Virus record (IMG/VR): IMGVR_UViG_3300030118_001520
Coordinates: 1-20,476 of that record
Direction: 5' to 3' (one strand)
DNA: 20,476 nt
DNA from: a virus
Below the pieces are notes generated by a model. That model saw only the letters and a program-made list of their open reading frames with translations. It did not search any database and was not told where the DNA came from. Both the position numbers and the translations under genes were made by a program. Below are positions 1,372 through 17,652 of the stretch, in pieces. Numbering within the stretch: position 1 is the stretch's first letter; each line of letters starts with the position of its first letter.

Positions 1372-2927
1372 GACTTGATGTAACCACACTCAAGGGTCGC
1401 TTCAAGAAAGCTATGGCCCACAAGGATGAATGGCGATCCATCTATGAGGATGCGTATCGCTATGTTTTACCTAATCGTAATCTCTATGATGGGAACTACG
1501 AAACGACTTCACCAAAAAATGACAAGATGAACAGAGTGTATGACAGTACAGCAATACACGCTACCCAGAGATTTGCCAATCGACTACAGTCGGGGGTCTT
1601 TCCTACGCAACGTCATTGGTGTCGTTTAGTTCCGGGGGAAGAGATACCAAAAGAAAGACACGTTGAGATACAGCGTGTTCTTGATCAGTATGCAGATACT
1701 ATGTTTGATGTTATGCGGCAATCAAACTTTGATATGGCGATGGGTGAGTTTCTCCTCGAGTTAGCAATAGGAACGGCTGTAATGATTATTCAACCCGGTG
1801 ACGAGTTGCAACCCATTCGCTATACAGCCGTTCCCTCCTTTCTCATTGCTTATGACGAGGGGCCATTTGGTACAGTTGACAAGGTGTATCGCTTGCATCG
1901 CATTCCTTTTGTCGCTGTTGATCAAGAGTTTCCAGATGCTGACATCCCCGATCAGCTCAAACAGAAGTATGACGGCAGACCAGATGAGAAGATAGAGCTG
2001 TATGAGATTACCTGCTATGACAAGGATGAAGGTATCTTTCACTATCATGTCATTACCAAGGAAGGTGAAGATGAGATTGTGTATAGACGTTTGAACTCCT
2101 TCCCTTGGGTTGTGTCTCGGTATATGAAAGCAAGTGGCGAAAAGTATGGCAGAGGACCTGTCCTTACAGCTCTGCATGACATCAAAACCCTCAACAAGCT
2201 CAAAGAGTATCATCTCAAGAATGCATCTCTCTCTATCGCAGGTGTTTATACAGCAATGGATGATGGGGTGCTGAACCCAAACGCAGTCAGACTTGTACCT
2301 GGAGCTATCATCCCGGTGGCTCGAAACGGGGGAAACCAAGGAGAAAGCTTGAAGCCCTTGCCCAGAAGTGGTGATCCGCAACTTTCCCAGATGTCACAAC
2401 AAGACCTTGTGATGTCCATCAAGCAAATACTGATGGATGATATGTTGCCGCCAGATACATCCTCGGCTCGATCTGCTACGGAAATCATGCAAAAGATGAA
2501 GATCTTATCTGAGAATATGGGCAGTGCCTTTGGAAGACTTATACAGGAAACGATGTACCCCGTTGTCAGACGTACTCTTGAAGTTATGGATGAGCTTGGA
2601 ATGATTGAACTGCCCTTGAAAGTCAATGGGTTGCAGGTCAAAGTTCAGCCCGTAGCTCCAATAGCGATGTCTCAGAACATGGAGAAAGTAAGTGAAATAA
2701 TGCAGTATATGCAGATAGCACAGAGTATGGGGCCTGCCGGGCAGTTGGCAGTAAAGCAGGAAGTCCTTCTTGACTACATAGCCGATCAGCTTGCTATACC
2801 TGCCGAAGTCAGAATGACCCCAGAAGAAAAGCAACAAATACAGCAAATGCTGATGGAACAAGCAATGCAGATGCAAAATCAACAAGGAATGATGCAAGGT
2901 GGCGGAGAACCAGAACAACCAGCTTGA
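1368..2927 (+). CDS. Portal protein (T7 gp8-type head-to-tail connector)
   Basis: This is the dodecameric ring at the special capsid vertex through which DNA is packaged and ejected, and onto which the tail tubular proteins dock. At 519 residues it is close to T7 gp8 (536). Family signatures are an N-terminal helix with EWRSIYEDAYRYVLPNRN (21-38), an RVYDSTAIHATQRFANRLQS stretch (56-75), SGEKYGRGPVLTALHDIKTL (256-275), a clip/stem-like part, and PPDTSSARSATEIMQKM (361-377), the conserved ERTTAxE-like helix of this family. The last 35 residues are rich in methionine and glutamine. The start is fixed by the ATGA overlap with the small basic gene. The 3' end overlaps the next gene by 29 bases. 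Assignment to the podovirus head-tail connector family (PF12236 type) is confident. Confidence 0.93.
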   Translation: MRLDVTTLKGRFKKAMAHKDEWRSIYEDAYRYVLPNRNLYDGNYETTSPKNDKMNRVYDSTAIHATQRFANRLQSGVFPTQRHWCRLVPGEEIPKERHVEIQRVLDQYADTMFDVMRQSNFDMAMGEFLLELAIGTAVMIIQPGDELQPIRYTAVPSFLIAYDEGPFGTVDKVYRLHRIPFVAVDQEFPDADIPDQLKQKYDGRPDEKIELYEITCYDKDEGIFHYHVITKEGEDEIVYRRLNSFPWVVSRYMKASGEKYGRGPVLTALHDIKTLNKLKEYHLKNASLSIAGVYTAMDDGVLNPNAVRLVPGAIIPVARNGGNQGESLKPLPRSGDPQLSQMSQQDLVMSIKQILMDDMLPPDTSSARSATEIMQKMKILSENMGSAFGRLIQETMYPVVRRTLEVMDELGMIELPLKVNGLQVKVQPVAPIAMSQNMEKVSEIMQYMQIAQSMGPAGQLAVKQEVLLDYIADQLAIPAEVRMTPEEKQQIQQMLMEQAMQMQNQQGMMQGGGEPEQPA

Positions 2928-3165
2928 TGAAGATCTATGGCCCAATGTCTCTGAAGATCCTCAAGCATCCCAGATGGATATGCTGTATGCAACTGTCTTC
3001 AATAGTCCAGATGGCTTGAAGGTCTTGAAGCATTTAGAAAGCACAACTATTGATCAGCCCTGTTGGTTTCCGGGAACAGAAGCAAGCCAAGGATACTATA
3101 GAGAGGGGCAAAACTCATTAGTAAGACAGATAAACAATCGCATAAGGAGAGCTAAAAATGTCTGA
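2899..3165 (+). CDS. Bbp19-like small phage protein
   Basis: This 88-residue protein begins with GTG at 2899, inside the portal 3' end; AAGGA at 2883-2887 is the candidate ribosome site, with somewhat long spacing. The first in-frame ATG (2977) would remove the first 26 residues. The core has VFNSPDGLKVLKHL (33-46), a variable middle, and YYREGQNSLVRQINNRIRR (66-84), which matches my memory of the Bbp19-like phage domain: an F-x-x-P-x-G-x-x-V-L-x-x-L stretch and a terminal EGxRxxVxxI helix. Members sit between portal and scaffold in many podoviruses; a role in head assembly is inferred, as the biochemistry is not known to me. The stop overlaps the scaffold start by eight bases. The start codon is the least certain point. 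Confidence 0.62.
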   Translation: MAENQNNQLDEDLWPNVSEDPQASQMDMLYATVFNSPDGLKVLKHLESTTIDQPCWFPGTEASQGYYREGQNSLVRQINNRIRRAKNV

Positions 3166-3943
3166 AGAACAGCAAGAAGAACAGATTGAAGAGCAACCAC
3201 AAGCTGAAAGCAGTATGGAAAAACTAGCAGGAGAGGATCTCAATGCCACGACAGAAGAAGAAAATTCGCACCTCCAGACCAATGATGAGCCGGAGGGTGT
3301 TGATCCGGACGAGGTTGAGTTCGTCAAACCAGAGTGGCTCCCGGAGAAGTTCTGGGATACGGAGAACGGCACGAACATAGAGAAGCTTGCCAAAAGCTAT
3401 ACTGATCTTGAAAAAAGATTTTCAAAGGGGGAACACAAAGCCCCAGAGAGTTATGATGTTTCTTTTCTAGGAGAGAATGTTCCAGAAGATGATGAGCTTC
3501 TCAACAACTACAAGGAGATAGCCACTACCTATGGAATGTCACAAGAACACTTTCAGACACTTGCTATGCAGTTTGTTGGTGCTGTTGAAGAAGAGGAACG
3601 CAGTGAGCAAGAGTTTATTGAAGAGCAGAAGCGTCTGTTAGGAAATAATGCTGTTGAGTTAGTGCGATCCAACTATGACTGGGGAAAAAGTCTTCTGAAC
3701 AAAGGGGTCATTACAGAGAATGAGTTTAGTGTCCTAGACCAGATGGGCGGTACAGCCGATGGTACAAGACTATTGCGAAAGATTAGAAACCTATCAAGTC
3801 CAAAAGAACTGCCTATTCCCTCTTTCACCGGGGAAAGAAAGACAAAAGAAGAGTTGGCTCAGTATGTAGCTGACCCACGTTGGAAGTCTGATCCCGTGTG
3901 GAGAAAGCAAAAAGAGAAAGAGTTTTACGACAACATTGCCTAA
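3158..3943 (+). CDS. Capsid scaffold / assembly protein (T7 gp9-like)
   Basis: A 261-residue acidic protein preceded by AAGGAG (3144-3149). Scaffolds form a transient core around which the major capsid protein assembles and leave before DNA fills the head. The first 55 residues are almost all glutamate, glutamine and aspartate. Then come EWLPEKFWD (59-67) and TNIEKLAKSYTDLEKRFSKG (72-91) followed by APESYDV, a pattern typical of phage scaffolds (xxExLAKSYxxLExxxG, then aPExYd). The middle is predicted helical with a long glutamate-rich coiled coil (about 140-160). The C-terminus (DPRWKSDPVWRKQKEKEFYD) resembles the short basic helix that usually contacts the capsid protein. Position between portal and capsid supports the call. 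Confidence 0.87.
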   Translation: MSEEQQEEQIEEQPQAESSMEKLAGEDLNATTEEENSHLQTNDEPEGVDPDEVEFVKPEWLPEKFWDTENGTNIEKLAKSYTDLEKRFSKGEHKAPESYDVSFLGENVPEDDELLNNYKEIATTYGMSQEHFQTLAMQFVGAVEEEERSEQEFIEEQKRLLGNNAVELVRSNYDWGKSLLNKGVITENEFSVLDQMGGTADGTRLLRKIRNLSSPKELPIPSFTGERKTKEELAQYVADPRWKSDPVWRKQKEKEFYDNIA

Positions 3944-3983
3944 TTTTTCTTCTTTACTCAATTTTCAAGATATGGTATCGGTG

Positions 3984-4023
3984 GATTGAGCGATAACTAC
4001 ATCTGTAGCCGTTCAATCTTTTT
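3984..4023 (+). terminator. Terminator-like hairpin upstream of the capsid gene
   Basis: In the 142-base gap between scaffold and capsid, GATTGAGCG (3984-3992) pairs with CGTTCAATC (4010-4018), nine pairs with one G-U. Inside the loop, CTAC (3997-4000) can pair with GTAG (4005-4008), extending the structure. Five T residues (4019-4023) follow directly, as in a Rho-independent terminator. The stem is only moderately GC-rich, so partial termination or an RNA-processing structure are alternatives. I found no convincing -35/-10 pair between 4024 and the capsid start. The rest of the gap is AT-rich and holds only the capsid ribosome site GGAG (4076-4079). Confidence 0.6.
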
Positions 4024-4085
4024 GATTGGCGGATTTATTCCATAACCAAGAAAACACTAATGTTAATTTTTTTATGGAGCGATAG

Positions 4086-4943
4086 ATGTCGAACAACGCA
4101 ATTTCAAACGCATTCGTCACTATCTTTGAAAGCGAAGTCCATCAAGCTTATCAGTCTGAAGCTAAGTTGGCAGGAACTGTCAGAACCCGAACCAATGTTG
4201 AGGGGTCAACTGTAAAGTTTCCAAAACTAGCTAAAGGTCAAGCTTCTGTTCGCAATCCGGGGACACAAGTCACACCTGTTGGGGCCCAGTTCTCAAGTGT
4301 AACAGCAACGATGGTGGATTATTCAGCATCAGAGTACAGTGATATCTTTAACCAAGCGAAAATAAACTTTGACGAGAGAGCAGAACTAGCCGAGATGCTA
4401 GGTAAAGCCATAGCCAGACGAGAAGATCAAGTGGTGATTGATGCCCTAATAAACGCATCAGCCGGGTCAACTGTCGCAAATACTGTGGTAACAAGCGGAT
4501 CAGCAAGTGCTTCTGACCTCAATGTTGGAAAGATTATTGCCGCAGGAAAAGCACTAAACGCAAAAAACGTACCTGCTACCGAGAGATGTTTGTTAGTTCA
4601 TGCTAACTCAATGGCATCCTTACTTGGTGATGAGAGAGCAGTAAGTTCTGATTTTATTCAGCTACAGGCTCTCCAGAGAGGTGAGGTTCAAACTTTCGCC
4701 GGGTTCAATATAATTATGTTTGGTGACAGAGATGAGGGCGGTATTCCAATCGATGGATCAAATGACAGAACGTGTGTAGCGTTCCACAAGTCAGCCATTG
4801 GTCTAGGTGTTGGTATGCCTGCTAAAACAGAAATCAACTATGTTGCAGAAAGAACATCGTTTCTTGTGACTGCCATGTATTCGGCAGGAGCGATAGCGGT
4901 AGATACTGATGGCATCGTAGATGTAACTTGTAGGGAGAGCTAA
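4086..4943 (+). CDS. Major capsid protein (HK97-fold podovirus type)
   Basis: This 285-residue protein forms the icosahedral shell. It starts with ATG at 4086, six bases after GGAG (4076-4079). The N-terminal MSNNAISNAFVTIFESEVHQ, a short strand-rich region (TVRTRTNVEGSTVKFPKLAK), the helix KINFDERAELAEMLGKAIAR (90-109) containing the xDEraelaxxlGxaxxRxeD pattern, and the hydrophobic C-terminal strands (AVDTDGIVDV) match the coat proteins of podoviruses with T7-like tails. The family is typically 280-350 residues. The gene sits between the scaffold and a small decoration-like gene, preceded by the longest intergenic region of the window, as expected for the most highly expressed virion gene. 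The HK97 fold is inferred from family resemblance. Confidence 0.88.
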   Translation: MSNNAISNAFVTIFESEVHQAYQSEAKLAGTVRTRTNVEGSTVKFPKLAKGQASVRNPGTQVTPVGAQFSSVTATMVDYSASEYSDIFNQAKINFDERAELAEMLGKAIARREDQVVIDALINASAGSTVANTVVTSGSASASDLNVGKIIAAGKALNAKNVPATERCLLVHANSMASLLGDERAVSSDFIQLQALQRGEVQTFAGFNIIMFGDRDEGGIPIDGSNDRTCVAFHKSAIGLGVGMPAKTEINYVAERTSFLVTAMYSAGAIAVDTDGIVDVTCRES

Positions 4944-4944
4944 G

Positions 4945-5229
4945 ATGGCATTTGTAAGAAATGATTTCAATACCATCGGAGGACAAGCCAGAGCCGGGGT
5001 TACTCCAGCTATGTATGTCTATACCACAACAGAAGCTCATACTGCGGTAGACGCAGAAGGATATTTCAACGACATATCTGATATTCTAAGTGTGGGTGAT
5101 ATGATAATTGTTCATGGTTCAACCGGTGGCACACGAACAGTCACTATGCACGTTGTTGTCAGCAACGCCAGTGGTGTAGTTGATATAAGCAATGGTACAG
5201 TCATTGCCGTGGTAACAGACAGTGACTAA
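4945..5229 (+). CDS. Probable capsid decoration / head protein
   Basis: A 94-residue protein starting one base after the capsid stop, with AGGGAGAG (4932-4939) as ribosome site. It begins MAFVRNDFNTIGGQARAGVT, continues with VYTTTEAHTAVDAEGYFNDI and SVGDMIIVHG, and ends in alternating valine/threonine strands (TRTVTMHVVVSN). This looks like a compact beta-rich domain. Small proteins with an N-terminal FxxxGGxxxxGxxPxxxxYxT motif and a GYFNDxSDxLxVGDxIxV core commonly follow coat genes in podoviruses and are usually annotated as hypothetical or head proteins; this is from memory. Tight coupling to the capsid gene suggests it is made in large amounts and binds the shell, but no direct evidence is visible. 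Confidence 0.6.
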   Translation: MAFVRNDFNTIGGQARAGVTPAMYVYTTTEAHTAVDAEGYFNDISDILSVGDMIIVHGSTGGTRTVTMHVVVSNASGVVDISNGTVIAVVTDSD

Positions 5230-5236
5230 TATTCTT

Positions 5237-5277
5237 GGGGGGTAGTTCCGACTGCCCTCCAAACCAAAAGGGGTTTG
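5237..5277 (+). promoter_or_regulatory. Tandem hairpins between the decoration and tail tubular A genes
   Basis: GGGGGGTAGT (5237-5246) pairs with ACTGCCCTCC (5251-5260), ten pairs including two G-U, closed by the four-base loop TCCG, which is a UNCG-class stable tetraloop in RNA. Next, CAAACC (5260-5265) pairs with GGTTTG (5272-5277) around AAAAGG. The second hairpin contains the only purine-rich ribosome-site candidate (AAGGGG, 5268-5273) for the tail gene at 5279. No T-tract follows, so this is not a standard terminator. Likely roles are protecting the 3' end of capsid mRNA, RNA processing, or lowering translation of the next gene; all inferred. Confidence 0.55.
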
Positions 5278-5278
5278 A

Positions 5279-5893
5279 ATGGCAAGCACAGACACAGACG
5301 TTTCTATTTGTTCTCAAGCCCTATTACTTCTCGGATCAACGAGTATATCCTCCTTTTCCGATGGAACTGCCCCGGCTTCAATAGCTGGGGTTCTTTATCC
5401 AAAAGTAAAAGCACAAACTCTTGGAATGTATCCTTGGAGCTTCTCACTTACAAAAACACAATTAGCACAGTCAGCATCTACTCCCCTATCTTATTGGCAG
5501 TATGCCTATGCCTTACCTTCAGATATGGTGAATGGAGTACCTCGAAAAGTATTTATCTCTAATAATACAAACGCTCCTAATCTTACTGACTATGAGATCC
5601 AAGGTGCTGAACTATTATCACAAGAGCAGACAATCTATATAGATTATCAAAGGGATGTTGATGAGCAGTCAATGCCTGCTTATTTTGTACAACTTCTCAT
5701 ATATCAGATGGCATGGCATCTAGCTGAACCTGTAACAGACCAGACTACCAAATCAGAATATTGGAAGAATGTAGCCCTTGGAACTCCCCTAGAAAGTCTG
5801 AGGGGTGGCTACTTCCGTCAAGCTACTGCTATTGATGGATCTGGGCAATCTTCTCAAGTTCTAGCTGATTATGTACTAGTGGATGTCAGATGA
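5279..5893 (+). CDS. Tail tubular protein A (T7 gp11-like adaptor)
   Basis: This 204-residue protein is the adaptor ring between portal and nozzle in T7-like tails. The N-terminus VSICSQALLLLGSTSISSFS (8-27) followed by LYPKVKAQTLGMYPWSFSLT (39-58) is the family signature (ICNxALxxLGxxxIxSxxD, then YxxxrxxxLxxxPWxFA). Other typical parts are YAYALPSDMVNGVPRKVF (75-92) and IYIDYQRDVDEQSMPAYFVQ (118-137), the YxxxxxDxxxxPxxFxxAL element. The length is close to T7 gp11 (196). The candidate ribosome site AAGGGG lies within a small hairpin just upstream. The stop overlaps the next start (ATGA at 5890), so the two tail-tube genes are translationally coupled. Confidence 0.9.
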   Translation: MASTDTDVSICSQALLLLGSTSISSFSDGTAPASIAGVLYPKVKAQTLGMYPWSFSLTKTQLAQSASTPLSYWQYAYALPSDMVNGVPRKVFISNNTNAPNLTDYEIQGAELLSQEQTIYIDYQRDVDEQSMPAYFVQLLIYQMAWHLAEPVTDQTTKSEYWKNVALGTPLESLRGGYFRQATAIDGSGQSSQVLADYVLVDVR

Positions 5894-7923
5894 GCCGGGT
5901 TACAGTCTATCAATCAAACTTCACAGTTGGGGAGCTTGATCCTCTTGTCAAAGGCAGAGTTGATCTCAATCAGTATCCTTCTGGATTAGATCGGGCAAAG
6001 AATATAACGGTGATGCCGCAAGGTGGCTTTGAACGAAGACCGGGACTTGCGTTCTTACAAGATCTGAGCAGTCACTTAGGTGGCTCTTTCAATGCCCAGA
6101 ATGGTATTAGGCTCATTCCTTTTGAGTTTAGTAATGATCAAAGCTTTATGTTGGTCTTTGTAAAGCAGTCAGCGTCTGAAACTAGAATGTTTGTCTATGC
6201 TAACAAGGTTCTAATTACAAATATAAATGGCTCTGGAAATAATTATCTTGCTATAAATCTAGGCAATATAGATCTGTCCAAGCTATTCTTCACTCAATCG
6301 GCTGATACACTAATACTTGTTCAAGAAGATCTTGCCCCTCGAAAGATTGTAAGGGGTGGGTCAAACTCAACATGGACTGAAAGCACTATATCTCTAACCT
6401 CTCCTTTTCATGCGTTCACTATCTCAACATCAAATCCAAGTGCAACGATTACACCAGACGCAGTTGATGGAACAGTTAAGATTACAGCATCGTCCGGGAT
6501 ATTTTCTTCTGGCAATGTAAACCAGTATATCAATGTCCTCAATGGTTTTGGTCGTGCTAGGATTATTGAGTTTGAAAGCTCTACAGTTGTAAAGACAGTA
6601 GTTGAAGTTCCCTTCTTTGAAGCATCAGTTGCTATTGCGTCTGGTGACTGGGAGCTTGAAACGGGATATGAAGCGGTCTTCTCTAATACAAGAGGGTTTC
6701 CCCGGACCTGTACTTTTCACGAAGGACGGCTCTTTTTTGGTGGGTCAAAGTCTATGCCCAACACAGTGTTTGGCTCAAAGGTTGCTGACTTCTTTAATTT
6801 TAAAACAGATGAAGCGTTGGATGATGATGCGTTGTTTGTCACCATATCAAGTGATAGTCTGAATGCTATCAATGCTATTCGCTCTGGTCGAGACTTGCAG
6901 ATCTTTACGTCATCGGCTGAGTTCTTCATACCACAGTCAACACTTGATCCAATAACACCATCAAACATAGTTATTAAGATTGCCACCCGTAGAGGGTCAA
7001 AAGAGGGCATCAAACCCGTGTCAGCGGAAACTGGCACTCTTTATATACAAAGATCAGGTAAAGCCCTCAGAGAGCTTATTTTCAGCGATACAGACCTAAA
7101 CTACAACTCAGACAATGTGTCTCTTCTTTCCTCCCATTTGTTGAAGAACCCTACCAAGATGGCTCTGAGGGTGGCAACCTCTACAGATGATGGTGATCTT
7201 CTTATGATCTGTAATGGAACGGATGGGTCAATGTGTGTCTATTCTATTCTCAAACCACAGAATGTTGTTGCACCGTCTGAGTTTATTACTGATGGCACGT
7301 TTGAAGATGTCTCTGTTGATATTGAGGATATTTATGTTGTGGTCAAAAGAACAGTCAACTCTGCAACCAAGCATTATCTTGAGTGCTTTGATGATGATAG
7401 AACTACGGATGCAAACATACAATACTTCTCTGGAGCGACTGCCCCGGATCAAGCAAAGCCAACTAACACTACTGCCGGAAGTCTGTCGCATTTAGAGGGT
7501 AAGGTTGTGAATGTTATAAGAGATGATTTTGTGCTGACTGATAAAACTGTTGCGTCTGGGCAAGTAACTCTTGATGCAGTACCTACAACCTATGTTGAGG
7601 TTGGGTTGCCCTACGATGTTGAAGTCAAGACTATGCCCGTTGAACCAAGGCTATCAAGTGGCGTTATCACAAGCAGAAAGAGAAGAATACTAGAAGTATC
7701 GCCTATATTAGACAGAACCCAGAACCTTGCAATCAATGGTAACGAGATACCCTTTCGAGAGTTGCCCCATACATTAGGAACAGCTCTGCCAACCTTCACC
7801 GGGAGAAAACGTATGTCTCCTCTACTTGGCTACTCAAGTGAGGCCCAGATTACATTTACAATGACTAAACCTCTATTCGCTACAGTACTAGCAGTAGAGT
7901 ACAAACTTTCAACAGGAGCATAA
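5890..7923 (+). CDS. Tail tubular protein B (T7 gp12-like nozzle)
   Basis: At 677 residues this is the hexameric nozzle that closes the tail channel and anchors fibres; T7 gp12 has 794 residues, so this is a shorter member. The diagnostic N-terminus is YQSNFTVGELDPLVKGRVDL (7-26), then KNITVMPQGGFERRPGLAFL (37-56), matching the FxxGELSPxlxGRxDlxxYxxG...NxxvxpqGGxxRRPGxxfv pattern. The middle is beta-rich, including RGFPRTCTFHEGRLFFGGSK (268-287), another family hallmark (P.....f..gRL.fgGs...P..v..S). The ATGA overlap with the adaptor gene fixes the start. The gp14-like gene begins two bases after the stop. I see no truncation or frameshift. Confidence 0.92.
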   Translation: MSRVTVYQSNFTVGELDPLVKGRVDLNQYPSGLDRAKNITVMPQGGFERRPGLAFLQDLSSHLGGSFNAQNGIRLIPFEFSNDQSFMLVFVKQSASETRMFVYANKVLITNINGSGNNYLAINLGNIDLSKLFFTQSADTLILVQEDLAPRKIVRGGSNSTWTESTISLTSPFHAFTISTSNPSATITPDAVDGTVKITASSGIFSSGNVNQYINVLNGFGRARIIEFESSTVVKTVVEVPFFEASVAIASGDWELETGYEAVFSNTRGFPRTCTFHEGRLFFGGSKSMPNTVFGSKVADFFNFKTDEALDDDALFVTISSDSLNAINAIRSGRDLQIFTSSAEFFIPQSTLDPITPSNIVIKIATRRGSKEGIKPVSAETGTLYIQRSGKALRELIFSDTDLNYNSDNVSLLSSHLLKNPTKMALRVATSTDDGDLLMICNGTDGSMCVYSILKPQNVVAPSEFITDGTFEDVSVDIEDIYVVVKRTVNSATKHYLECFDDDRTTDANIQYFSGATAPDQAKPTNTTAGSLSHLEGKVVNVIRDDFVLTDKTVASGQVTLDAVPTTYVEVGLPYDVEVKTMPVEPRLSSGVITSRKRRILEVSPILDRTQNLAINGNEIPFRELPHTLGTALPTFTGRKRMSPLLGYSSEAQITFTMTKPLFATVLAVEYKLSTGA

Positions 7924-7925
7924 CT

Positions 7926-8429
7926 ATGGCATTTGTAGCACCAGCATTAGGAGCAGTAGCAGGATCATCAGCGATGACGGCAGTATCTGTTGGGTTGTCG
8001 GCTGTTTCCGCAATAGCACAACTATCGGCAGGAGAAAAAGCAAAACAAGCCTACGAACAGAGAGCAAGAAATGAAGAGCTTAATTCAAGAGTGGAAGCTG
8101 TCAACGCAAAGAAAAAGGGTGTAGAAGCTCTCAAAAGAACTAATGCAAGTCTAGCATCTATTATTGCAGGGTCTGGAAGGCAAGGACTTGCATTCTCTGG
8201 AACTGTCTTAGACAGAGGGGTCTTCCTTGTGCAACGACCTGCATCAGAAGATTTTAGCGATACCGCCTTTAATGCATCTATGGCTTTGATGACGGGCAAG
8301 ATGAGAGCAGATGATTTACGAGCCGCAGGTGACCAAGCAAGACTGCAAGGACAGATTGGAGCGTTCTCAACCTTGGCCAGTGCTTTTGGTAATGCATCTG
8401 GCATATCCCCTAATCTACCTGGCTTCTAA
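7926..8429 (+). CDS. Internal virion (ejection) protein, T7 gp14-like
   Basis: This 167-residue protein starts two bases after the nozzle gene. It has an alanine/glycine/serine-rich hydrophobic N-terminus (VAPALGAVAGSSAMTAVSVG and on to about residue 32), long enough for a membrane-inserting helix. A charged helical section (37-75) follows, then GSGRQGLAFSGTVLDRG (86-102) and an alanine-rich helical C-terminus. The layout (hydrophobic start, coiled helix, ASxGRxGxxxSG motif) is typical of the gp14 group, whose members leave the virion first and form a pore in the outer membrane. Length is close to T7 gp14 (196). Its place directly after the nozzle and before two large helical proteins supports the role. 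Confidence 0.78.
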   Translation: MAFVAPALGAVAGSSAMTAVSVGLSAVSAIAQLSAGEKAKQAYEQRARNEELNSRVEAVNAKKKGVEALKRTNASLASIIAGSGRQGLAFSGTVLDRGVFLVQRPASEDFSDTAFNASMALMTGKMRADDLRAAGDQARLQGQIGAFSTLASAFGNASGISPNLPGF

Positions 8430-8431
8430 AT

Positions 8432-10273
8432 ATGGCCCCTACCTTTCGTCCATATCAATCAGTAGGTCAAGGACTAAACAGACTTAATCTGCCTGAAGGA
8501 GCTGAAGCAAGAGAAGCTCAGAGAACTATGACCGTTCTCTCTCAAGCTATGGATAGAATGTCCAACTTCTATTTTAATAAAGCAGAAGAACTTGCGGCAA
8601 TAGAAGGAGAAAAGTTTGGTATTGAGAATATGTCCTTACAAAAACTCAAGGATGCAAACAAACGAAACGAAGATATCTTTGATGTACCAGAGTTTGGCAA
8701 TACTGTTTTTGGAAAAGCGGCAAGAGCATCAGCTCTAACTGTTTTAGAAAACGAAATACTTCTCGACTATAATAGTTCTATTAGTGATCTTGTATTCAAT
8801 GCAAACCAGAGTGGTACTAATCCAACTGTCCTTAGAAACCAGATAGATGCAACGATCAAAGGATATGTTGATGCTCTCAAGCCATCTGTCCCGGTTCTAG
8901 CTAAAAAAATAGAGGGCAAGCTTACTCTGCAAGGAGCGAATGAGTTTGATAACTACAGAACAGCTCATGCCAAAGGGGTAGCAAAAAACCTTACAGCAAC
9001 AAACATTACTGCCTTAAATCTTCAGATCAATTCTTTGGACGGGCCTCTCAACAAGTTTTACAATGATGGTACTCTCACTCAGAAGTCTTTCTCAACACTA
9101 AGAGATGATTTTGCTGAGTTGTTAGATAATCCTGCCGCAGGTCTGGGTCTATCTGACACAGAGAAAAAAGCATATATTAAACAGATTGATGATAAGTTTG
9201 CATCTTTTGTTCAAGCAAAAGTGTTTGCAATAGCTATGGACAAAGCAAAGCCTATGGCATTTCTAAACAGTCTGCTTGATCCAGATAACCCCAAAACAAC
9301 CGGGAACGAAACTTTAGACAGACTTCTCAAATCACCCATGTTTGATCTTGAAAGAAAGTCTAGCATTTTTACTGAAATAAAAAAAGAAATTAGAGATCTG
9401 AGAACTGAAGAGAACTTAGAAGAAACAAGAAAAGAAAAAGAACTGCCCACCAAGATTAATGCAGTAAACGCCCAGTTTAATAAATTCTTATTTGGTATAG
9501 GAAACAATGGGTTAGCTGATGTAACCAATGCTCTGAAACAGATTGAGGAGATGAATAAGATTGACCCAAGTAAGGTACCAGCTATGCAAAAGAAACTTGC
9601 AGATCTAAAAGGTGGGCTACGGGCAAGCAGTGACTTTAATAATCCAAATGTAATTACTTTTGTTAAAAAGCTCAATGCAGGTCAAGCAGACTATCAAGAT
9701 CTTGCCAATGTTGCAGACTTGTTAAGCCAACAGGATCTTGAAAATTTTGATGCTCAACTTGATGAGATAACAGATGAGAAGTTTAAAAACGCACAAGCAA
9801 CCCTAATTGGAGAACTAGGATATAGTCCAGAAGCAAAACTTGCAGAACAAGCTCTTGAGGAAACAGAGACCCGGGCCCAAGCCTACCGACTAGCATATGC
9901 AGAACTATTAGAAAAAGCGAGTGATGCCAAACGTCTTAATCAAGATATTGATCTGAAACTTGAAGCCAAAAAGATTGCCAAAAAATACATAGATGATTTT
10001 GATATCAAGCTTGATAAGATCAATAGAAAAAAGATTGTGATAAATGTAAGAAAGAAAATTGAAGCGTTAAAAAGTGCAGATGTTCCAAACGTACCTACTG
10101 TAAATGTTGAAGACCCCTCAGAAGCTCTGCAATTCGTTATTGATTACATGGTTACAAACAAAAATAACAAAGAAGCATTAGCAAACTTTGGGGCAGGTCT
10201 TATTAGAAAACAAAACGTGGAAAGAAATATTGATGCATTACGTCTAGATCTTGAAAGATTGAGAGGTGAATGA
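8432..10273 (+). CDS. Large helical internal virion protein (gp15-like position)
   Basis: This 613-residue protein is almost entirely predicted helix and rich in lysine, glutamate, leucine and alanine. It starts MAPTFRPYQSVGQGLNRLNL and continues with long heptad-like segments, for example 55-80, 310-345 and 450-545. No catalytic motif, signal peptide or membrane segment is visible. Position between the gp14-like gene and the gp16-like gene, and a length comparable to T7 gp15 (747), suggest the middle ejection protein that builds the periplasmic tunnel. I cannot show sequence homology to gp15 by eye, so the call rests on context and helical character. The ribosome site before ATG at 8432 is weak; translation is probably coupled to the preceding gene two bases upstream. 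The stop overlaps the next start. Confidence 0.68.
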   Translation: MAPTFRPYQSVGQGLNRLNLPEGAEAREAQRTMTVLSQAMDRMSNFYFNKAEELAAIEGEKFGIENMSLQKLKDANKRNEDIFDVPEFGNTVFGKAARASALTVLENEILLDYNSSISDLVFNANQSGTNPTVLRNQIDATIKGYVDALKPSVPVLAKKIEGKLTLQGANEFDNYRTAHAKGVAKNLTATNITALNLQINSLDGPLNKFYNDGTLTQKSFSTLRDDFAELLDNPAAGLGLSDTEKKAYIKQIDDKFASFVQAKVFAIAMDKAKPMAFLNSLLDPDNPKTTGNETLDRLLKSPMFDLERKSSIFTEIKKEIRDLRTEENLEETRKEKELPTKINAVNAQFNKFLFGIGNNGLADVTNALKQIEEMNKIDPSKVPAMQKKLADLKGGLRASSDFNNPNVITFVKKLNAGQADYQDLANVADLLSQQDLENFDAQLDEITDEKFKNAQATLIGELGYSPEAKLAEQALEETETRAQAYRLAYAELLEKASDAKRLNQDIDLKLEAKKIAKKYIDDFDIKLDKINRKKIVINVRKKIEALKSADVPNVPTVNVEDPSEALQFVIDYMVTNKNNKEALANFGAGLIRKQNVERNIDALRLDLERLRGE

Positions 10274-11970
10274 TGGCTGAAGAATTTGATCTAGTCTCTG
10301 AGATTATTCGCTCTAACAACCTTAGAAGGGATGACAACCATCAGCTAAGTATTGTAAAAGGAAAGCTTCAAGTTGAAGATCGTGAGGTTGGCCCAGACTA
10401 CACCGATATGGATCAAGCAATCAAACTAGTTGGTGAAAGTGATGAAGCTGAGTTAAAAGATCTTCTTGGAAAGGCTGAAGGTATTCAAGCTCCACCTCGA
10501 ATAAGCAGACAGAATATAAGAAATAGAGTGTTCCAAGGATTGACCAACGTAGGACTTGATCCAGAGAAGAGCAGTTTCGTTGCTGATCTCTTTGTAGGAG
10601 ATATGAACACAGAGTTTGGTCTTCTTGACTTTATGGCTGTTATGTCCCCGGTTGACATCATTGAAGGTATCAGACGCTTTAGAGGTGGGTCTAAGTTAGA
10701 AGGTAGTCTTCAAGCCGGGATGGGTTTTGCAGAAGCCGCTCCCTATGTTGGCAAGGCAGTCAAGACATTGAAAGAACCTATCAAATCGGCAGTAAGCTCA
10801 GTTGCAGGTCCTGCTCGAGAGTTTATAGAAAAGCAAGGCGGTGGCACTCGTCTAGGTGCTAATGACGCAGAAAACATTATTGCTCAAGGAGTTGTTGCTC
10901 TAGATGACACCATCAATCCTAAGAAAAACAATGCAGAGCTTAGAAAGCTTGAATTACCAACAGACAACAAACCGGGAATAATTGCCTTTCATGGTTCTGG
11001 TGCTGACTTTGATGAATTTAAGTTAGTGAAAATTGGAACAGGTGAGGGCAATCAAGCGTTTGGTTATGGGCTGTATTTCACAGATTTAGAAAGCATAGCA
11101 AAATACTATAGAGATGCTATGAGAGAAGAAAGAAATCTTCTTCATCTTGATGGAAAAAAGTTAGATAGTGTCTTTACCGCTGATAATGAAGAAAAATTTG
11201 GTGACTATGTTACAAACAACTTTCCATCTAGTAGCCATGATAATGTCTACATGGTGTTAGATAATCTTGGTCAAGGTTTAAATTCGCTTGAAGATGCTGA
11301 CCAATTAGCGTTTTCTTTAAATACTGCTCAGAAACAAATTTACAACCAAATCAAAAAAGATTTATCTGTGCCAGAACTTTCTGAGGGCAAGATGTATAAA
11401 GTGTCTTTAGCTCCAAAAGAAAGTGAGCTTCTTGACTATGACAAAATGCTTATTGATCAACCTAAAGAAATGCAAAAGAAAGTTCAGAAAATTGTAGACA
11501 TTTTACCTTTTAATAAGCCTGCAATGGATGCGAGAAATGGTAATTCTTTTCAAGAAGAATTGACGACACAAGTTGAGGGCAGTATCAAAAACCTTGTTAC
11601 TCAAAAAACTTTGGTTATGAAAGGCGAAATGTCAGAAGAAGTTTTTAACAAAACAGTAAAACAAGACCCTTTTATTAATTTAGTATTTAAAAAATTATTT
11701 AAGCAAGGGGAAGAAAATCAAGGCTTTGGCATAAACCCCCTAGCTAGAACTCCACAGATAGCATCACAGATAATGGACGAATTTGGTATCAAAGGCATAA
11801 AATACAAGGCTGGTCAAGGCGTAGGGATACGCAATATTGATGAAAATGCAAAGGCAAACAATTACGTCATTTTTGACGAGAAGGCAATTAAAGTACTTGA
11901 GAAATATGGCATTGTTGGGCCAGTCGCTTTGACATCCGTAGCTTCACAACAAGGGGAAACAGATGGTTGA
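10270..11970 (+). CDS. Ejection-cassette protein with ADP-ribosyltransferase-like (ART-PolyVal-type) domain
   Basis: A 566-residue protein. Residues 1-115 are polar and helical. Residues 117-170 (GLLDFMAVMSPVDIIEGIRR and on to APYVGKAVKTLK) resemble the glycine/proline hydrophobic segment of large phage polyvalent proteins. Residues 236-548 look like an ADP-ribosyltransferase domain: IIAFHGSGADFDEF (237-250), with H241 as the likely NAD-binding histidine; then GTGEGNQAFGYGLYFTD (256-272), with Y269 as the conserved tyrosine and the GxGxYFT turn; and GIKGIKYKAG (506-515) with NYVIFDEKAI (531-540) as the closing strands. I cannot assign the third catalytic residue. ARTs transfer ADP-ribose from NAD+ to proteins or nucleic acids. 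The gene lies inside the internal-virion-protein block, so delivery with the DNA is inferred. ATG at 10270 or 10273 could start it; AGAGG at 10262-10266 fits the second slightly better. Confidence 0.75.
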   Translation: MMAEEFDLVSEIIRSNNLRRDDNHQLSIVKGKLQVEDREVGPDYTDMDQAIKLVGESDEAELKDLLGKAEGIQAPPRISRQNIRNRVFQGLTNVGLDPEKSSFVADLFVGDMNTEFGLLDFMAVMSPVDIIEGIRRFRGGSKLEGSLQAGMGFAEAAPYVGKAVKTLKEPIKSAVSSVAGPAREFIEKQGGGTRLGANDAENIIAQGVVALDDTINPKKNNAELRKLELPTDNKPGIIAFHGSGADFDEFKLVKIGTGEGNQAFGYGLYFTDLESIAKYYRDAMREERNLLHLDGKKLDSVFTADNEEKFGDYVTNNFPSSSHDNVYMVLDNLGQGLNSLEDADQLAFSLNTAQKQIYNQIKKDLSVPELSEGKMYKVSLAPKESELLDYDKMLIDQPKEMQKKVQKIVDILPFNKPAMDARNGNSFQEELTTQVEGSIKNLVTQKTLVMKGEMSEEVFNKTVKQDPFINLVFKKLFKQGEENQGFGINPLARTPQIASQIMDEFGIKGIKYKAGQGVGIRNIDENAKANNYVIFDEKAIKVLEKYGIVGPVALTSVASQQGETDG

Positions 11971-14925: not shown

Positions 14926-17652
14926 ATGACTAACATAAATGCACAAGATAGACGGGTTCAATACACCGGGAACGGAACGGCAGGCCCTTTCAGTTTCTCA
15001 TTCCAAGTAAACGCAACATCAGAAATAAAAGTCTATGTTGATACCACAGTTAAAACACTTACTACACATTACACAGTTTCATTAAGCAGTGATGGCTCTG
15101 GTACAATAAGCTTTACAACCGGGAACCATCCAACTAACAGCCAGACTATTACCATCATGTCCAACATTCCTATCTCAAGGACATCACAATTTACAACAGG
15201 TGGTACTCTTACAGCGGATGCTCTGGAGACAGAGTTCAATAATCAGTTCATGCACCATCAACAACATGATCAGAGACTTGATAGAGCTTTATTGGTGCCT
15301 GAGCATGATACCATTTCGGGAGCTAACTTTATACTGCCTGCTAAAAGCTCCCGACTTGGAAAGCTGTTAGGCTTCAACTCTACAACGGGAAACCCAGAAG
15401 CTAGTTTTACAGTTGCAGACGGCAACACCCTTGCCGGGATCTCTGGTGATATAGCAACACTTGCTGATCTTCAAGATGGCACAACAACATCCAATGGTCT
15501 TTCTACCCTTGCAGGGATATCTAGTGACATATCAACCGTATCAGGTGTAAGCAGTAATGTTACTACAGTGGCATCAAACATATCAAACGTAAACGCTCTA
15601 GCCGCATCATCCGTTATCACAGATATGTCTCTTCTAGCAACAACTGATGTCATTGCTGATATGGCACTCTTGGCAAATGCTGATGTTATATCTGATATGA
15701 ATACTCTTGCTGTTACTGATGTCATCAACGACATCAACACCCTAGCTACCTCAGATATTGTTTCAGATCTAAACACCTTGGCAACGAGTGACATAGTATC
15801 AGACATCAATACTCTTGCTACTTCTGATATAGTCTCAGATCTAAACACTCTTGCGACAAGTGACATAGTTGCAGATATAAACACCCTAGCAACATCAGAC
15901 ATTGTTGCTGATCTTGCCTTGCTTGCTACATCAGACTTTGTATCTGACCTCAACACAATGGCAACTACCTCAAATGTAAATAATCTCAACACCGTTGCAG
16001 GGGCTGTAAGTAATGTAAATGCACTTGGGCCGATATCAGCAAATATCACAAGTGTGGCGAATATTGCTAGTGATGTTACCTCGCTTGCTAACTCTCTTGA
16101 AAAAACATACACCGTCACCGTAGTCAATCCCGGCAGTGGTAATGTCTTTGCTCTCGATGGCAGTAACAAACCAGCCATATCAGTCTTTAGGGGCAACAAA
16201 TATATTTTCAACCAAACAGCAAGCACCAACGATGGACACCCTCTTGTCTTTAAAAATGGTGGCTCAGATTATGAGGTGGGAGTTACTTACTATCTAAATG
16301 GTTCTGCGACTACTCGGTCAAACTATGTCAATACTACAACCTTTAATGCTGGTCGATCATCTGGTGATAGAAAGGTCGAGATAGAAATAGCATCCTCTGC
16401 CCCAAGCTCTGGTTTGGCTTATGTATGTTATGTTCATGGGTCTGGCATGGGTAACTCAATATCTGTCTCAGATAGCAACATATCCTTGGTGGCAGGATCA
16501 ATAACAAACATAAATACGGTGGCTGGTCAGAATGCCAACATCACAACTCTTGCCGCAATATCAAGTGATATCACAACTTTGGCTGGAACAACTGGTCTTT
16601 CTACTCTGGCATCCAATGCATCAAATATCAATGTGGTGGCAACGAACAATACTAATGTGACCAATGTCGGATCAAATATTACAAACATTAACACCGTTGC
16701 GTCAAACCTTACTAACGTCAACAACTTTGCTAATCGTTACAGAATTGGAACATCAAATCCAACCTCATCGTTAGACAATGGTGATCTCTTTTTCAATACT
16801 ACTAGCAGTACCTTGCTAGTGTATGGTTCAAGTGGTTGGCAAAATGCAGGGTCTTCAGTCAACGGAACATCTGCAAGATTTACTTACAATATATCTGGTA
16901 CTCCTACATCAGTTACAGGAGCTGACGCAAACGGCAACACTTTAGCATACGATGCCGGATTTATTGATGTGTATTTAAATGGAGCCAGGTTGTCTGGTGC
17001 TGATATAACCACAACCTCTGGGGATACTGTAACTTTTGCGTCTGCTTTGGCAAACGGTGACGTTGTTGATATCGTTGCTTTTGGTACATTCAATGTTGCA
17101 AGTATCAATGCAAACAACATCAATGCCGGCACAGTTCCTATAGCAAGACTTGGAACTTCTGGAACAAAAGATACTACTACCTTCCTCCGAGGTGATAATA
17201 CCTTTGCAGTGGTCGATACGACAAACGCATCAAATCTTTCTACCGGTACTCTTCCAAACGCTAGACTAAGTTCTGTTCCAAACTCTGCCCTTGCTAACTC
17301 TTCAATAACAATAAATGGATCAGCTATATCTCTGGGTGGATCAGTTACGGTTGAGACAGACTTTACATGGGAAACAAAAACAGCAAACTTCAATGTTAAT
17401 GCAAGTCGGGGATACTTTGTAGATACTTCAAGCAATGCGGTTACAGCAACCCTCCCTGCAAGTCCGACTGCCGGGGATACTGTTCGGTTTATTGACTTGA
17501 GTGCAACATTTGATACTGCGAACTTAACAGTGGCTCGTAATGGTAAGAAGATCCAAGGCGATGCTAGTGACATGACAGTCGCTACCGAACGAGCTGGATT
17601 TGCTCTGGTATTCTCTGGGGATACACAGGGTTGGCTATTGATGGAGAAATAA
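14926..17652 (+). CDS. Tail fibre with T7 gp17-type N-terminus, 12-residue repeats and cupredoxin-like domain
   Basis: This 908-residue protein is the main host-recognition fibre. Residues 1-130 match the T7 tail-fibre attachment domain: RVQYTGNGTAGPFSFSFQV (10-28), a TLTTHYTVS strand, and FNNQFMHHQQHDQRLDRALL (104-123). Residues 225-356 are eleven 12-residue repeats of LATSDIVSDLNT type, a probable trimeric shaft. Residues 394-514 look like a cupredoxin-like beta domain, with H438 (GHPLVF), C501, H504 and M508 (CYVHGSGM) in copper-ligand order. Asparagine/threonine-rich repeats return at 525-600. A beta domain begins near 645 (RFTYNISGTPTSVTG), and GTSGTKDTTTFLRGDNTFA (743-761) is a phage-fibre motif. 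The C-terminus ends GDTQGWLLMEK. Ribosome site AGGGG is at 14912-14916. No chaperone or tailspike enzyme motif is seen. Confidence 0.9.
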   Translation: MTNINAQDRRVQYTGNGTAGPFSFSFQVNATSEIKVYVDTTVKTLTTHYTVSLSSDGSGTISFTTGNHPTNSQTITIMSNIPISRTSQFTTGGTLTADALETEFNNQFMHHQQHDQRLDRALLVPEHDTISGANFILPAKSSRLGKLLGFNSTTGNPEASFTVADGNTLAGISGDIATLADLQDGTTTSNGLSTLAGISSDISTVSGVSSNVTTVASNISNVNALAASSVITDMSLLATTDVIADMALLANADVISDMNTLAVTDVINDINTLATSDIVSDLNTLATSDIVSDINTLATSDIVSDLNTLATSDIVADINTLATSDIVADLALLATSDFVSDLNTMATTSNVNNLNTVAGAVSNVNALGPISANITSVANIASDVTSLANSLEKTYTVTVVNPGSGNVFALDGSNKPAISVFRGNKYIFNQTASTNDGHPLVFKNGGSDYEVGVTYYLNGSATTRSNYVNTTTFNAGRSSGDRKVEIEIASSAPSSGLAYVCYVHGSGMGNSISVSDSNISLVAGSITNINTVAGQNANITTLAAISSDITTLAGTTGLSTLASNASNINVVATNNTNVTNVGSNITNINTVASNLTNVNNFANRYRIGTSNPTSSLDNGDLFFNTTSSTLLVYGSSGWQNAGSSVNGTSARFTYNISGTPTSVTGADANGNTLAYDAGFIDVYLNGARLSGADITTTSGDTVTFASALANGDVVDIVAFGTFNVASINANNINAGTVPIARLGTSGTKDTTTFLRGDNTFAVVDTTNASNLSTGTLPNARLSSVPNSALANSSITINGSAISLGGSVTVETDFTWETKTANFNVNASRGYFVDTSSNAVTATLPASPTAGDTVRFIDLSATFDTANLTVARNGKKIQGDASDMTVATERAGFALVFSGDTQGWLLMEK
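15598..15993 (+). repeat. Eleven tandem 12-residue repeats coding for the fibre shaft
   Basis: Eleven consecutive 36-base units encode variants of LATSDIVSDLNT (fibre residues 225-356). The protein repeat is strong, with six near-identical central units (15742-15957), but the DNA is not repetitive. The first two central units share 11 of 12 residues but only one identical codon, and over the five adjacent comparisons I count 15 identical codons among 49 shared residues. The periodicity suggests one helical or beta turn of a trimeric shaft per repeat. Confidence 0.85.

Follow-up and report, generated by a model that had tools for sequence, protein, structure and literature searches.

Virion-delivered effectors are known from phage T4, whose Alt protein is an ADP-ribosyltransferase (ART) injected together with the DNA (PMC5512222). 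They have also been predicted in polyvalent proteins, which are large, have several domains and may contain ART-PolyVal domains (PF18760, Tox-ART-HYD2 clade) with an H-Y-D active site (PMC5512222). MuF proteins carry varied C-terminal effectors, including ARTs, and some ARTs are encoded beside terminase or portal genes (PMC9503650). Injected ARTs, ART-PolyVal domains and MuF-effector fusions are already known or predicted (PMC5512222, PMC9503650). The ejection proteins of T7-type phages are usually viewed as a DNA conduit, and they are not mentioned by Iyer et al. 2017 (PMC5512222). We have analyzed a 20,476-base fragment of a marine podovirus from IMG/VR (IMGVR_UViG_3300030118_001520, hereafter the window), where a gene that we call X lies between genes coding for gp15-like and gp16-like internal virion proteins. 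We consider it likely that X is a carrier belonging to the ejection cassette, with an exchangeable C-terminal effector which in this phage is an ART-PolyVal-type ADP-ribosyltransferase.

X resembles each of these systems in part. T4 Alt provides the functional model, a virion ART injected with the DNA. However, Alt belongs to the R-S-E clade, has a different active site and is found in a myovirus head, whereas X is part of a podovirus ejection cassette; its H-Y-Y-N pattern places it outside the Alt family. The polyvalent proteins share with X the ART family, the predicted fold, the vicinity of virion genes and the predicted injection. X differs from them in being a carrier of 566 amino acids with a single payload and an Asn at motif III. 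Polyvalent proteins are expected to contain at least two disparate domains and to be encoded near virion genes: X lies near virion genes and has one recognisable enzymatic domain. Two or more domains are found in some of the contigs used for comparison (those with L numbers, all of them metagenomic), such as L009 (ASCH and DUF7178) and L030, L072 and L086 (ParB-like and ART). MuF proteins resemble X in having an ART tied to morphogenesis genes. The carrier part of X, in contrast, does not match any MuF model, and it is located between gp15 and gp16, not beside the portal.

The ADP-ribosyltransferase domain of X

The presence of an ART-PolyVal-type ADP-ribosyltransferase domain in residues 236–548 of X is confirmed. 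It had originally been proposed from sequence motifs, with exactly these limits (10975–11913), and the motifs are all found at the places claimed: F240-H241-G-S-G, G256-TGEGNQAFGYGLY269F, GIKGIKY and NYVIFD. Searches of Pfam, PHROG and PDB with the single sequence of X are weak or negative; the Pfam matches, ART-PolyVal (E=0.0056) and DUF3990 (E=0.013), are below threshold. Viral relatives were gathered using motifs which exclude H241, Y269, Y280 and N531, and were then reduced to 64 distinct sequences. ART-PolyVal is matched by 63 of them at E<0.01 (best value 4.5e-8). A profile built solely from distant homologues, ten in number, found in bacterial contigs and mostly in proteins of 878–3,754 amino acids, gives X a score of 142.4 bits over residues 237–547. 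The best score among 1,847 scored shuffles is 8.5, so that the domain cannot be attributed to chance. Prefoldin and similar entries also appear in profile searches of the PDB; they are matches of the helical insert.

The predicted structure agrees with this assignment. An AlphaFold2 (AF2) model based on 94 diverse sequences has a predicted local distance difference test (pLDDT) of 83.8 and a predicted template modelling score (pTM) of 0.78, with H241, Y269 and N531 in predicted strands. In an earlier run, based on 64 close relatives, the pLDDT of the ART core was only 30–40, probably owing to the very low variation of its alignment columns; a more diverse alignment cured this. When compared with viral models by Foldseek, the model matches predicted ART-PolyVal proteins of phages, with 27 matches at E<=1e-3 and the best ones down to 8e-11. 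The ratio of non-synonymous to synonymous substitution rates (dN/dS) between the ART domains of the window and L002 is about 0.10–0.17. The domain is therefore maintained by purifying selection.

Four positions of the putative active site are invariant in all relatives, as shown in Table 1. The original prediction left open a third acidic or polar residue: this position corresponds to Asn531, neither Glu nor Asp, in 64 of 64 sequences. The rule used to extract alignment A6 partly imposes this Asn, which makes alignment A4 the fair test. The strand-5 motif is N-Y-V-I-F-D, with Asn531 at the position of the PARP Glu; Asp536, at the end of the strand, is likewise invariant in A4. The Tyr pair of human PARP1, Y896 and Y907, has a spacing of 11, the same as that between Y269 and the second Tyr in X. 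If NEYIVYD in PARP1 is set against NNYVIFD in X, Asn531 takes the place of the catalytic Glu. The letters of motifs I and II are close to those of PARPs, HGS and YFA (PMC7955679). In the ART-PolyVal family an H-Y-D site has been reported, with the D in strand 5 (PMC5512222). H241 and Y269 of X agree with the family pattern of an H in strand 1 and a Y in strand 2.

Exchange of the C-terminal segment

The window and L009 can be compared at the nucleotide level. Nucleotide identity is 98.9% over window positions 2560–10287 (7.7 kb), where several genes reach 99.95–100%. It is 90.8% over 10287–10925 and 94.7% from 11961 on. Between them, over 10926–11960, the sequences are unrelated. Within 7926–10923, identity drops in steps, from 100% to 90%, as the swapped segment is approached. 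This is the footprint expected from an exchange through flanking homology.

The segments found in place of the ART are diverse. L009 contains ASCH (Pfam 3.3e-5, above cut-off) followed by a DUF7178 region (5.2e-9), L003 has DUF7178 alone (2.7e-9) and L008 has a different segment of about 530 amino acids. In L004 there is no payload, and X has only 195 amino acids. Other types appear in more distant relatives: DUF7699 with a tudor-like end in L010, and the phrog_2563 type in L011, L192 and L196. These relatives were found by means of gp16, and they are not biased towards the ART. When the loci are clustered, the N-terminal group of the window (12 loci) has at least six C-terminal states, while the ART C-terminus (33 loci) is found on eight unrelated N-terminal groups, within gp15-X-gp16 cassettes. 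Near-duplicate contigs are included in these numbers, and the design of the search favoured the ART set. X therefore looks like a carrier with an exchangeable payload slot. At the C-terminus of the ART, DUF7178 and L008 payloads, a short hydrophobic stretch is followed by a tail that is polar or acidic. Speculatively, these ends may serve packaging or membrane passage.

Some details of the payloads should also be noted. The DUF7178 region is located at L003:10655–11842 and, preceded by ASCH, at L009:8380–10008, and it is also found in L195. The L008 payload (L008:5400–7010) carries the motif VLYIDEIQSDWGQ; it has no Pfam match and a weak match to a long 'endolysin' PHROG. A ParB-like domain (phrog_2579) is found directly 5' of the ART in the same protein at L030:5645–6910, L072:8420–9997 and L086:8489–10000, which are true polyvalent architectures.

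The nearest cultured phage is Methylophilales (OM43) phage MEP301, with identities of 49% for tail tube B, 53% for the capsid and 26% for gp16. Its gene order is gp26 (gp15-like), gp25 (161 amino acids), and gp24 and gp23 (gp16-like, split). In a search of five proteins, the largest N-terminal group among the X proteins with an ART has a match in gp25 (E=1.6e-8), so gp25 is probably a natural carrier without payload, comparable to L004 in the window lineage. No N-terminal homology between the window carrier and gp25 was detected, and we do not claim a single carrier family across all these phages.

The exact order gp15-X(ART)-gp16 is found in 17 marine podovirus contigs. In most of the other ART contigs with T7-type markers, one neighbour is cut off or unassigned. 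The placement between these two genes, as originally described, agrees with the map of the window. The original prediction also spoke of an ART built into the core proteins: its position within the ejection cassette stands, its fusion to a core protein does not, as the ART is part of a separate gene between them. Nor is it an unusual addition to a T7-type apparatus, as had been suggested: the layout recurs in the 17 contigs, and the slot can hold several payloads, of which the ART is one. Other arrangements exist. In Sulfitobacter phage phiGT1 an ART relative (gp5) is flanked by portal and scaffold. The ART of vir555 and LS06 is within giant proteins which adjoin internal virion proteins. All the ART contexts examined are virion or packaging modules.

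Possible function of X

We infer the packaging, ejection, catalysis and target of this ART as follows. X would be a fourth component of the podovirus ejection cassette. Its N-terminal part, kept within the phage lineage, probably docks it in the virion core. X would be made late, together with gp14, gp15 and gp16, packaged in the internal core, and would leave the virion with these proteins during ejection. The ART domain would then mono-ADP-ribosylate a host macromolecule using host nicotinamide adenine dinucleotide (NAD+), before phage gene expression.

There are two precedents for such a location. ORF173 of Dickeya phage LIMEstone1 belongs to the ART-PolyVal family, like X (Pfam 5.2e-12, above cut-off); it differs in being a small standalone myovirus protein. 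It was detected in virions by mass spectrometry, with one peptide and 11.84% coverage (PMC3296691), which makes the virion delivery originally proposed for X plausible. The second case concerns podovirus internal proteins. The predicted structure of Pf-WMP3_26, encoded beside an internal-protein gene, is similar to that of the ART (E=0.029, probability 0.98). The last 300 residues of Pf-WMP3_26, with an HGT...YLT motif, are homologous to chain B of the solved cyanophage A4 pre-ejectosome, 9k3a (E=3.7e-11). This indirectly suggests that ART-like parts exist in podovirus ejectosomes. Both proteins share a C-terminal H-G-T ... Y motif; they differ from X in that the ART-like part is fused to very large proteins, and the structural similarity is distant.

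Some points weigh against this reading. Neither Foldseek against the PDB nor profile searches of PDB sequences found a solved ART structure with a significant match; the top Foldseek entry, the cyanophage A4 pre-ejectosome (E=0.44), is not significant, and we consider it a lead, not evidence on its own. The Asn at motif III, present in 64 of 64 relatives, lies outside the definition of the H-Y-[EDQ] clade of ARTs, so that activity could be altered or lost. The virion precedent of ORF173 is a single peptide. Finally, the same ART domain adjoins terminase and portal genes in a second group of phages, so that ejection proteins are not its only setting.

X could also be expressed late and act in the producing cell, where the ART and its alternatives would serve superinfection exclusion or counter-defence, not virion delivery. 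The exchange of payloads in near-identical phages fits competition between defence and anti-defence equally, and phage ARTs which are not packaged are known (PMC9503650). Nevertheless, we find this unlikely: the gene has a consistent place between gp15 and gp16 in an operon of virion proteins, with overlapping start and stop codons, and the other instances examined likewise lie in head and packaging modules.

Somewhat less probable still is a catalytically dead ART, which would serve the core as a structural part or by binding NAD. Inactive ART-like domains exist elsewhere (PMC7955679), and motif III has Asn in place of Glu, Asp or Gln. With this Asn, poly-ADP-ribosylation is not to be expected; the domain could be a mono-transferase, hydrolyse NAD+ or have lost its activity. 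There are, however, PARPs with other non-acidic residues at this position which are listed as mono-transferases (PMC7955679). The H, Y, Y and N residues are invariant over divergent members and dN/dS is low. A purely structural role is also difficult to reconcile with the absence of the domain, or its replacement by unrelated ones.

All compared contigs being metagenomic, the swaps might be assembly chimeras, which is very improbable: the pattern is repeated in independent contigs from different samples, with intact frames and homologous flanks on both sides, one N-terminal cluster is joined to several C-termini and the converse, and the isolate MEP301 has the short form.

If X is indeed a carrier delivered with the ejection proteins, its target needs to be considered. 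Host RNA polymerase had been suggested by analogy with T4, and we have found no evidence in support of it. The exchange of payloads among almost identical phages points to selection which depends on the host or its defences, not to an unchanging core function like the takeover of RNA polymerase. We propose, with moderate confidence, that marine podoviruses have a dedicated, recombination-prone payload slot: a carrier between gp15 and gp16 keeps its docking N-terminus, while the effector (ART, DUF7178, ASCH, others or nothing) is swapped like the tips of tail fibres and matched to host defences.

What is new here is the presence of a swap slot in the gp14-gp15-X-gp16 cassette, documented at the nucleotide level between near-identical phages. 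We have found no prior description of a swap slot between gp15 and gp16 in the literature searched, whose coverage is incomplete, as most subscription journals fall outside it. These results suggest delivery of interchangeable enzymes by the phage at the very start of infection of its host. In that case, effector delivery by small podoviruses would become a general and testable theme, and reading a single locus would be a route to new early-acting effectors. Near-identical phages occur naturally with an empty or a filled slot, and these are ready pairs for comparison.

Gene map of the window

According to PHROG profiles, the structural genes of the window form an operon of podovirus type: connector/portal (phrog_332), major head protein (phrog_3437), tail tubes A (phrog_394) and B (phrog_376), the gp14-like, gp15-like, X and gp16-like genes, and a tail fibre. 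The names gp14, gp15 and gp16 also rest on the cassette as a whole, which is homologous to that of MEP301 and of other marine podoviruses. The gp16-like protein is homologous to MEP301 gp24/gp23 and to the pelagiphage 'internal virion protein D'. The label 'T7-like' is right for the ejection cassette. A T7-type RNA polymerase gene was not identified in the window fragment, where no search aimed at one was made.

Table 1. Features of the ejection cassette and of gene X in the window.
Feature	Position	Strand	Evidence or remarks
gp14-like internal virion protein, 167 aa	7926..8429	+	phrog_418 internal virion protein, E=2.7e-5; weak T7_gp14 Pfam match
gp15-like internal virion protein, 613 aa	8432..10273	+	position; profile of relatives against MEP301 gp26, E=1.3e-29
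Gene X, 566 aa, proposed to carry the payload in the ejection cassette	10270..11970	+	between gp15-like and gp16-like genes
Carrier portion at the N-terminus of X, aa 1–218	10270..10923	+	kept in L003, L004, L008 and L009 (86–90% identity); distantly in L010 and L011
Exchanged segment of X	10926..11960	+	unrelated sequence in L009; analogous segment replaced in L003 and L008, absent in L004
ART-PolyVal-type ADP-ribosyltransferase domain, aa 236–548	10975..11913	+	profile, relatives, predicted fold
His241, motif I (HGS)	10990..10992	+	invariant, 64/64 relatives
Tyr269, motif II (YF[TS])	11074..11076	+	invariant, 64/64
Tyr280, candidate nicotinamide-stacking Tyr	11107..11109	+	invariant, 64/64
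Asn531, motif III position (N-[YF]-V-[IV]-F-D)	11860..11862	+	invariant, 64/64; Glu in PARP1
C-terminal end of X: short hydrophobic segment (GIVGPVALTSVA) and polar tail	11908..11967	+	comparable tails end the L003, L008 and L009 payloads
gp16-like internal virion protein, 976 aa	11963..14893	+	phrog_6651 'internal virion protein', E=4.9e-8; start overlaps the end of X

Two other genes of the window should be mentioned. The tail fibre (14926–17652) has a weak match to LED repeats (Pfam PF20854, E=9e-7, below cut-off). A small gene 5' of the portal gene (386–943) matches phrog_308 'internal virion protein' and has a further, weak match to an N-acyltransferase PHROG; a relative of this gene is found within the tail/ejection gene region in the ART loci L044, L065 and L072.
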